DNA from: an uncultured Clostridia bacterium
Lineage (GTDB): Bacteria; Bacillota; Clostridia; Oscillospirales; Acutalibacteraceae
NCBI GenBank assembly: GCA_947176035.1
Contig: CAMWPJ010000004.1
Coordinates: 1 to 41,299 of the forward strand
Direction of reading: 5' to 3'
DNA: 41,299 nt
Positions 29,680-33,271 of this stretch are shown here, one piece after another. Position 1 is the stretch's first letter, and each line of letters begins with the position of its first letter. The notes under the pieces are model-generated. The model was not told the origin of the DNA. It did no database searches and saw only the letters and a list, made by a program, of their open reading frames with translations. The position numbers and the translations under genes are program-made.

Positions 29680-29708
29680 TTGCGATATACATTTTTATAT
29701 GCTATTAT
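29680..29708 (+). promoter_or_regulatory. Candidate promoter with extended -10
   Basis: TTGCGA - 17 nt - TATTAT preceded by TGC; no ORF follows on the + strand. Confidence 0.45.
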
Positions 29709-29715
29709 ACAAAGT

Positions 29716-29788
29716 GATGTAAGTGGTGAGATACTTATGTCGTTGCCAAAAACTCTTGCAACGAGCACTTCTTAAAGCAACTTACATC
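29716..29788 (+). ncRNA. Candidate structured RNA (nested hairpins) just downstream of the promoter
   Basis: Outer stem GATGTAAGT (29716-29724) / ACTTACATC (29780-29788); inner stem TCGTTGC (29740-29746) / GCAACGA (29758-29764). Confidence 0.35.
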
Positions 29789-29950
29789 GGTTAATATATT
29801 TGTACCTTGGCAATTCAATATAGCTGAAGCATTGATGACATTCCGGTAATAGCGAGCAGTTTCAAGTGTTCCGCCATAACTACCTGTTTCAATTGAAATA
29901 GAAAACGCAAATGTTTTTACAATATTTGAATGGTAAGGTACGAGCAGCAA
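29735..29950 (-). pseudogene. Fragment resembling the N-terminus of a TnpB-like protein
   Basis: KTFAFSISIETGSYGGTLETARYYRNVIN resembles the start of some IS605/IS607-type TnpB proteins; only about 70 aa remain. Confidence 0.25.
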
Positions 29951-30091
29951 TATAACATCTTGAATTAATAAAGTTGATTACTTTAGATTGCGATAACCTA
30001 TTATCAGGTGATAATGATACTTACATAATTCGTGTCCCGGTCACAAAGAAGATGGGGAGGTTCATAGACCTATGGAGATGTCAATCAGCAT

Positions 30092-30117: not shown

Positions 30118-30196
30118 TCAGCTTAATTTTTGAATTGACCTTTTTGTTAAATTATATGTGTGCTTTTGGCATTAACTTTAATAGCTGTAAAAAGGC

Positions 30197-30298
30197 AATA
30201 AAAAATCACCGACACAGAAGTTTGATGTGGTGGTAGCAATAACATTTGACTTAACATCAAAGGTGTTTGCTTTAGGGGATTGTCGGTGATTTTTTATT
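30197..30298 (-). ncRNA. Candidate short transcript closed by an 18-bp perfect inverted repeat that also acts as its terminator
   Basis: AATAAAAAATCACCGACA (30197-30214) / TGTCGGTGATTTTTTATT (30281-30298); inner TTTGATGT/ACATCAAA stem; on the - strand the distal arm ends in T6. Confidence 0.4.
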
Positions 30299-30311
30299 AA
30301 CTTAAGGAGTA

Positions 30312-30366
30312 ATGGTTAGCGTTTACTAACCATATATAGGTTAGCATAAACTAACTTATTTGTCAA
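30312..30366 (-). promoter_or_regulatory. Promoter with two palindromic operators (GTTAG-N6-CTAAC type)
   Basis: - strand TTGACA (30361-30366), 17-nt spacer, TGC-TAACCT (30338-30343); operators ATGGTTAG-CGTTTA-CTAACCAT (30312-30333) and AGGTTAG-CATAAA-CTAACTT (30338-30357). Confidence 0.5.
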
Positions 30367-30374
30367 TACCTGAA

Positions 30375-31589
30375 TTAAAAATTTTCTTTAAATTCATAAA
30401 ATATTGTGATTACTCTGTGCGTGTCGTTGCAGCTGTATGACAGATTACCGCTTTCAAGCTTGCTCGAAAATAGATCAATTGACATCAAAATCAAATGAAT
30501 ATTTTCATTATCAAGTAAAACGGTCCGAGCCTTTTGGTATGTCTCATCATTTGCAAATTTAAGTTCAATTCCGTTTTCTTTGTTTTCAAGGCTGTTTTTT
30601 ATTGCGTTTCGCGTTTTCGGTTGGTTGTATTCCTCAAAATATAAGTTTTCCTTTATGAAATAATTGTTTTTTTCTGCTGTGCTTTTTATGAAATCATATA
30701 TACTGCTGAGCTTATGTGTTTTTTCAATATTATCTGAATTTGCTAAAAAGTAAATATGGCTTACAAAATTATTACTTATAGTGCTCTCGTAGCAGTCACC
30801 CCAGGTAGGATCGGTAAAATAGTTTTCATTGTCAATAACCTGCACAACCCATGCATGATTGCCCACTCCGTCAGGTGTTTGTGCAGTACCTGTTACAGTT
30901 ATTGCATCAATGCCTGCAAGCGACAGTAAATATTGATATGCCTTTGAATATCCCGAACAGACTGCGCTTGAATTCAGGAATACACCTTCAATGGTTGATA
31001 TTTCAATATGATTATCCATATCGTTGATTGCATCGTGAGCATAGCTGGTATTGCTTATGATATAATCAAATATAGCGAGTGATTTTTCATATTCGCTTCC
31101 GGTTGGATTGATTTTATCAAAAATTTCCTGTGCTTTTTTTTCAATAGAATAGTTCTTTTCCTCGATTTCCTCAAAAGTGTATGGATATTTGAGAGTTAGT
31201 ATTCTGTTGCTTGCAAATATACAGTCGCCCTTTGACCAGAATATCTCGGGATGCTGCGCAATAACAAGCTGCACAAGCTCAAAAACCCTTTCTGTTTCGA
31301 TGTCCTGGTAAATAGCTACAGTGTCCTTGCGTTTGCTCATTGCATCATAAATGCTGTTATATGCCTTTTTTTCTTCCGCAGTCATTGTATCAAGCAGCTG
31401 CTCACTCAGCGTTTTTTTGCCGGTTGATTTGAATTCCTGATTTTTCAGATTAGTTGTCTGGATTTCTTTTTGCGTGGGTACAAAACTTTCGATAGTCTGT
31501 ACAATTGCACCTCCCGAATAAGCATTAAAACCAATTACGGATACAGCAATTAATATGATGCCGAGAAATACCAGTGAACTTTTTTTCAT
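30375..31589 (-). CDS. Secreted/membrane-anchored transglutaminase-like (papain-fold) protein
   Basis: N-terminal TM; LNSSAVCSGYSKAYQYLLSLAGI...GNHAWVVQVID...YFTDPTWGD carries the Cys-His-Asp triad. Confidence 0.85.
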   Translation of the reverse strand: MKKSSLVFLGIILIAVSVIGFNAYSGGAIVQTIESFVPTQKEIQTTNLKNQEFKSTGKKTLSEQLLDTMTAEEKKAYNSIYDAMSKRKDTVAIYQDIETERVFELVQLVIAQHPEIFWSKGDCIFASNRILTLKYPYTFEEIEEKNYSIEKKAQEIFDKINPTGSEYEKSLAIFDYIISNTSYAHDAINDMDNHIEISTIEGVFLNSSAVCSGYSKAYQYLLSLAGIDAITVTGTAQTPDGVGNHAWVVQVIDNENYFTDPTWGDCYESTISNNFVSHIYFLANSDNIEKTHKLSSIYDFIKSTAEKNNYFIKENLYFEEYNQPKTRNAIKNSLENKENGIELKFANDETYQKARTVLLDNENIHLILMSIDLFSSKLESGNLSYSCNDTHRVITIFYEFKENF

Positions 31590-32797: not shown

Positions 32798-33271
32798 ATG
32801 ACTGAAAAAATTGATTTAACACAGCTTGAGCCTGTGCTTGATGAGCTTGCGTCTGTTAAAGGCTCATTAATTACAATTTTGCAAAAAACTCAGGATATTT
32901 ATGGCTATCTGCCAAAGGAAGCGATTGAGTACATAAGCAAAAAAACAAATATTGCAGAAAGTGAAATTATGGGTGTGGCAACCTTTTATACTCAATTTCG
33001 CCTTACCCCTGTTGGCAAGTATCTTATTATGCTTTGTCAGGGTACAGCATGCCATGTTAATTCAAGTGAGCTTGTTTTGCAGACGATTCATGACGAGCTT
33101 GGCATATCAGACGGTGAAACAACTGAGGATGGTTTGTTTTCACTTAAGTGTGTTGCGTGCCTTGGCTGCTGTTCGCTTTCACCTGTTATGATGATTAATG
33201 ATAACACCTATGGTTCGCTTACTCCCGAAAAAACAAAGCAAATCTTAAAGGAACTGAGGGAGGCAGAATAA
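32798..33271 (+). CDS. NuoE-like [2Fe-2S] thioredoxin-fold subunit
   Basis: GVATFYTQFRLTPVGKYLIMLCQGTACHVN...CVACLGCCSLSPVMMIND. Confidence 0.92.
   Translation: MTEKIDLTQLEPVLDELASVKGSLITILQKTQDIYGYLPKEAIEYISKKTNIAESEIMGVATFYTQFRLTPVGKYLIMLCQGTACHVNSSELVLQTIHDELGISDGETTEDGLFSLKCVACLGCCSLSPVMMINDNTYGSLTPEKTKQILKELREAE

Follow-up and report, generated by a model that had tools for sequence, protein, structure and literature searches.

A conserved small RNA gene in Clostridia with predicted DtxR-type iron control and predicted iron-sulfur enzyme targets

The minus strand of an uncultured Clostridia bacterium at 30331-30197 of the window (the whole stretch of 41,299 nucleotides analysed here) probably encodes a trans-acting, iron-sparing small RNA (sRNA) that would repress the mRNAs of glutamate synthase, pyruvate:ferredoxin oxidoreductase (PFOR) and similar enzymes. 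From comparison of genome sequences we hold with high confidence that the non-coding RNA gene is real and belongs to a predicted iron regulon. We have good confidence in the iron-sparing function that we infer for it, and moderate to good confidence in glutamate synthase and PFOR as its main predicted targets.

Results

Structure of the RNA

The elements of the locus are collected in Table 1. The minus strand folds with -33.1 kcal/mol, against -13.0 +/- 2.8 for shuffled sequences (z -7.2), and it has an 18-bp perfect inverted repeat (30298-30281 / 30214-30197) that encloses a 66-nt loop. In front of this hairpin lies ACTCCTTAAG at 30310-30301 (-), within a seed whose core has a mean unpaired probability of 0.92, and ACUCCUUAAG is exposed within the non-coding leader; no ORF common to the relatives was found within the unit. 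The original prediction of a leader of about 130 nt with no convincing ORF, carrying an anti-Shine-Dalgarno-like stretch and closed by a perfect 18-bp repeat, is therefore borne out, the leader having no conserved ORF in relatives and the seed being mostly unpaired and conserved. The C-rich motif that it had also placed in the loop fares differently: the proposed AAUCCCCUAAAG is not conserved, and the element that is, ACCACCUACAUCAAACUU in the 3' half of the loop (mean unpaired probability of 0.79 over 30218..30237), had been overlooked.

Table 1. Features of the sRNA locus and its neighbours in the window
Feature	Position	Strand	Basis
Predicted sRNA of about 134 nt; start placed from the promoter	30197..30331	-	Nine-species conservation, covariation, no conserved ORF
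5' single-stranded seed CAUUACUCCUUAAGUUAA, complementary to extended Shine-Dalgarno	30297..30314	-	Unpaired probability, conservation, target scan
Closing hairpin, 5' arm	30281..30298	-	Fold, inverted-repeat search, covariation
Closing hairpin, 3' arm and U-tract, predicted intrinsic terminator	30197..30214	-	Fold, covariation
Loop motif GCUACCACCACAUCAAACUU (ACCACCUACAUCAAACUU in relatives)	30218..30237	-	Conserved
-35 hexamer TTGACA	30361..30366	-	Sequence; kept in relatives
-10 hexamer TAACCT after TGC, 17-nt spacer	30338..30343	-	Sequence
Operator 1 GTTAGTTTATGCTAAC, covers spacer and -10	30340..30355	-	Motif search
Operator 2 GTTAGTAAACGCTAAC, covers predicted start; RNA copy can form a 5' hairpin	30315..30330	-	
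Transglutaminase-like protein gene, immediately upstream	30375..31589	-	Pfam PF01841; syntenic in G008, G022, G075
nuoE-like [2Fe-2S] subunit gene, heads Fe-S operon	32798..33271	+	Pfam PF01257; rank 12/669

Conservation of the RNA in relatives

Operators, 5' seed and closing hairpin occur together in nine species (G000, G008, G022, G024, G027, G072, G074, G075 and G096), which argues that the RNA gene is real, with DtxR-type control by iron predicted for it; among public records, the unit occurs in Clostridia MAGs deposited as Clostridium sp., Eubacterium sp., Clostridiales bacterium or uncultured Clostridia bacterium. In an alignment of the stem from six species, 95.7% of the cells in 16 pairs are paired and 6 of the 16 pairs have changed on both sides, giving a covariation score of 0.400 as compared with 0.050-0.133 for slid-partner controls. 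The stem changes in sequence from one species to the next; the 5' seed and the loop motif ACCACCUACAUCAAACUU do not, as expected of an RNA that may act by pairing. Both the conservation of the unit and the covariation of its closing stem had been named beforehand as checks, and both were found.

A second covariance model, run on 36 genomes without the RNA, gave no further homologue that was convincing on inspection, and matches to the anti-Shine-Dalgarno pattern in G062 and G089 were discarded as chance. The RNA was not detected in G080, whose target genes are near-identical to those of the host and whose assembly consists of about 410 contigs. Rfam searches of the window and the relatives returned no family matching the RNA, and the comparison with plasmids returned no match.

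In two of the relatives, G022 (L105) and G008 (L104), the sRNA gene contains inserts with inverted-repeat ends (CAAGAGAGA...TCTCTCTTG; GAGTTGAT...ATCAACTC) between the seed and the hairpin, which resemble small MITE-type elements.

Genomic setting

The unit lies near genes for a HAD hydrolase and nuoE in G000, G008, G022, G072 and G075, with the transglutaminase gene beside it in all of these except G072. Since these chromosome-side neighbours (transglutaminase gene, HAD hydrolase gene and nuoE/F operon) are kept in relatives, gene order indicates that the sRNA belongs to the chromosome and that the ICE is a later neighbour. The description of the locus as an ICE/chromosome junction was thus correct as a location, but the junction is incidental.

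The order of genes also bears on whether the unit is instead a cis-acting attenuator, a regulated 5' leader in which transcription towards a downstream gene stops prematurely at the hairpin. A hairpin with a U-tract shortly behind a regulated promoter would suit such a leader, and in G074 a further operator and an ABC-transporter gene do come after the unit; in the window, however, no convincing gene follows it, and in the relatives the downstream genes vary or are convergent, so that we regard this explanation as very unlikely.

Two other elements were noted between the ICE and the sRNA. The Rfam pemK RNA motif (RF02913, 51.3 bits) occupies 30011-30075 (+) of the window, between the ICE genes and the sRNA, and an imperfect inverted repeat at 29706-29798 (TATACAAAGTGATGTAAGT / ACTTACATCGGTTAATATA, arms separated by 55 nt), immediately beyond the last ICE gene, is possibly an ICE end or an att/ori element.

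Promoter and operators

The promoter that had been read from the window, TTGACA-17-TGC-TAACCT, is present on the minus strand (30366-30361 and 30343-30338), and many relatives have TAACAT or TAATAT as the -10 hexamer where the window has TAACCT. Over the -10 and the start lie, also as described earlier, two near-identical palindromes of the form GTTAG-N6-CTAAC, 25 bp apart; the 2.16-Mb genome has just two copies of the exact motif GTTAGTNNANNCTAAC, and these are the ones at the sRNA locus. Generic promoter and terminator scans of the window did not pick up the unit, TAACCT differing too much from TATAAT and the 66-nt loop escaping a simple terminator scan. Support is therefore drawn from comparison.

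The assignment of the operators to a DtxR/IdeR-type regulator is supported, with one correction. Their half-sites, GTTAG and CTAAC, are those of the textbook DtxR box, but the spacing is N6 here and N1 in the consensus on which the assignment relied, and the operators of the sRNA locus do not match the textbook box TTAGGTTAGSCTAACCTAA (GTTAG-N1-CTAAC). Owing to this departure, the predicted binding of a DtxR-family protein rests on gene adjacency. Exact GTTAG-N6-CTAAC sites in the host genome are found at the sRNA locus, in a cluster on contig 7 and on contig 68, with one more on contig 15, inside a MazG-like gene, that may be there by chance. On contig 68, the identical 25-bp tandem layout stands at feoA-feoA-feoB, and the divergently oriented gene next to it (L056:4697-5068) has, according to Pfam, two iron-dependent repressor domains, PF01325 and PF02742; a DtxR-family-like gene adjoins operators in G027 as well. 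The contig-7 cluster comprises genes for NEAT, Shp haem-binding and periplasmic binding proteins, a flavodoxin and ABC exporters. The genome-wide search that had been suggested as a check thus finds the operators next to a DtxR homologue as well as at genes for Feo and haem uptake. Across the genus, the pattern of a -35 hexamer followed by two operators matches in 27 of 80 genomes, with no control matches, and nearly all tandem-operator promoters precede feoA or the sRNA, mostly feoA. Within the contig-7 iron cluster, a DUF3793 gene (L054 6571-7125, -) adjoins the flavodoxin gene downstream of two operators and probably belongs to the iron-starvation response.

Iron and manganese had both been considered plausible signals. 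The DtxR family includes MntR, and a spacing of N6 departs from that of the textbook iron box, as could be the case if the operators served an MntR-like regulator of manganese or of metals in general and the RNA responded to manganese. The operators, however, sit at feoA-feoA-feoB, haem uptake and flavodoxin genes, and no manganese transporter was found at those examined. By their genomic context iron clearly fits better than manganese as the controlling metal; control by manganese is, of the readings considered here, the one to which we give least credence.

Similar leaders outside the family

Tandem operators also precede leaders of other kinds. In Solobacterium MAGs (L110 from 5609 on, L111 and L112), identical tandem operators stand before another conserved leader, which contains ACTCCTTCAAACTCTGTA and TTCTCCTGG and has a hairpin resembling a terminator. 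No Rfam match was found in L110 and L111, and this leader is possibly an independent iron sRNA in another order. Two Lachnospiraceae MAGs (L115 and L116) have tandem operators upstream of a leader containing CTCCTT, which in L116 could pair with its own AAAGGAG; in L115 the leader runs into an enolase-like gene. In G030 (L080, from 1172 on), tandem operators stand before a leader in which TATTCC is repeated and which has a terminator-like hairpin; it may be a diverged relative or a different iron-regulated RNA.

Predicted targets in the host genome

An exact-pattern search for the complement of the seed found five matching places in the host genome. Among them are the RNA gene itself and the start of the glutamate synthase operon (GACTTAAGGAGTGATG); at the latter, inspection reveals 16 contiguous pairs, two of them G-U. 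A duplex scan covered 669 translation starts in stretches that make up about a third of the host genome; some of these stretches were picked for ferredoxin-domain genes or for the glutamate synthase site, and 200 control seeds, in which CUCCUU was kept and the flanks were shuffled, were scored on the identical genes. The glutamate synthase operon ranks first of the 669 with -27.3 kcal/mol, a value reached by 0 of the 200 controls, whose best scores average -19.9. It is followed, with identities taken from Pfam, by PFOR (rank 3), a NuoB-like subunit (5), the Fer4 gene of glutamate synthase (6), HypF (10), nuoE (12), rubrerythrin (13) and RnfC (15). By a strict Pfam count, the top 20 include 7 that encode iron proteins or head an Fe-S operon, as compared with 1/20 for two control seeds and 0/20 for random genes (Fisher p 0.02 and 0.004). 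A ferredoxin-motif regex is a weak classifier of iron proteins, yielding p = 0.04 with 1/200 controls reaching the difference, and radical-SAM-like proteins are not enriched in the host scan. Target prediction thus points to iron-sulfur enzymes, with glutamate synthase first and PFOR third. nuoE was rejected as a conserved target, its site not being kept in G008, G022 or G072, and is a weak candidate in this genome only.

The same scans bear on whether the RNA, while regulated by metal, has another main job, its seed being a general anti-Shine-Dalgarno element, its loop motif the true effector (acting on other mRNAs, a protein or a chaperone) and the matches to iron enzymes secondary. The loop motif is highly conserved, yet its perfect complements are mostly the RNA gene itself and no conserved mRNA partner was found; many non-iron genes also score well. 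Against this, the glutamate synthase outlier and the enrichment in iron proteins exceed in the host what is obtained with control seeds that preserve the core, and glutamate synthase heads the two-species ranking described below. We therefore consider another main job improbable.

Target sites in a second species and across the clade

In G027, a scan of 651 genes places FprA (flavodiiron-type), glutamate synthase, an aconitase-family protein (rank 5), PFOR, a radical-SAM protein and NadA among the top. The best single site, that of FprA, is reached by 32 of 100 control seeds and hence is not beyond controls, and the mean of the top ten beats them modestly only (10/100 reach it). When 141 orthologue pairs of G000 and G027 are ranked jointly, glutamate synthase comes first, with a z sum of -9.0 reached by 0/100 controls; PFOR takes second place, and the top-five mean stands out less (8/100 controls). 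Two-site pairing on the glutamate synthase mRNA was dropped as a general feature, being strong in G027 only.

An extended site, UUAACUU(A)AGGAG, is found at glutamate synthase and PFOR in most species that carry the RNA and is mostly missing elsewhere (p 0.0003 and 0.001). All carriers belong to a single clade of 13 species, so that this association could in part be due to common descent; the contrast within the clade is weak (p = 0.03 and 0.06), and a test on independent pairs found one well-supported pair only and no significance. G099 and G100 have target-like sites, with the RNA not detected; in G024, the RNA has no AAGUUAA and the PFOR site is also absent. Conservation of the sites thus supports these targets without proving co-evolution.

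Discussion

Taken together, our comparisons allow us to propose how the sRNA might act. When Fe(II) is ample, the DtxR-family repressor encoded beside feoAAB would bind both operators over the -10 and the start, and the RNA would be silenced. Upon iron starvation, it would be made along with Feo, haem uptake and flavodoxin, and its exposed 5' seed UUACUCCUUAAGUUAA would pair with UUAACUUAAGGAG, the extended ribosome-binding sites on mRNAs that encode iron-rich enzymes, the best predicted partners being the glutamate synthase operon and PFOR. Such pairing would block translation, so that scarce iron is saved for essential uses. The assignment to iron-sparing sRNAs with an FsrA-like anti-Shine-Dalgarno logic, as put forward in the original prediction, is supported by the operators, the conservation and the ranking of iron-enzyme targets.

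RyhB and PrrF are controlled by Fur and depend on Hfq in Gram-negatives. The sRNA described here shares their iron-sparing logic (PMC9410917) and has no match in Rfam. In Bacillus subtilis, FsrA represses gltAB, leuCD and citB, and its pairing with the gltAB leader has been shown in vivo (PMC8464778). Both RNAs are short, with C-rich single-stranded regions and iron repression (predicted for ours), and among the targets predicted here the glutamate synthase operon comes first, with an aconitase-family gene at rank 5 in G027 as a further likeness. FsrA, in contrast, is controlled by Fur and helped by FbpABC. The operators of our sRNA match sites of the DtxR/feo locus. The FsrA family (RF02273) has no match in the window at E up to 10, and none at its gathering score; a weak match in one relative was set aside, lying on the other strand and outside the RNA. 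IsrR of Staphylococcus aureus has three C-rich single-stranded regions, is repressed by iron and targets mRNAs of iron enzymes including gltB2 (PMC9410917). Compared by description, it resembles our sRNA in its C-rich regions and in glutamate synthase as a target (predicted for ours), but it is Fur-controlled and belongs to another host lineage. MrsI of Mycobacterium tuberculosis, whose promoter has a site for IdeR (DtxR family), represses hypF and bfrA (PMC8628891). It is likewise compared by description: the DtxR/IdeR-type control (predicted for ours) is a likeness, as is HypF, at rank 10 in our host scan, while MrsI is actinobacterial and has a six-nucleotide seed. RyhB, PrrF, FsrA and MrsI share neither synteny nor sequence with IsrR (PMC9410917). 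In the limited collection of literature that was searched, neither this RNA nor any clostridial sRNA under DtxR control is described, and the family, with no Rfam match, appears not to have been described before.

We would put forward only tentatively, as a doubtful extension, that DtxR-controlled iron-sparing sRNAs arose independently in Firmicutes, with the present family as one case and the C-rich Solobacterium leader behind tandem operators as a second, and that the seed co-evolves with the sites at which ribosomes bind the glutamate synthase and PFOR mRNAs.

Iron-sparing RNAs are known from few lineages, namely as RyhB, PrrF, FsrA, IsrR and MrsI. With operators, seed and targets now named, the proposal is open to direct testing. 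If it is true, the iron-sparing circuit would have been invented repeatedly, here in an apparently unrelated family that is under DtxR-type rather than Fur control and directed at PFOR and glutamate synthase, and it would extend to anaerobes that rely on iron-sulfur enzymes for their central metabolism.
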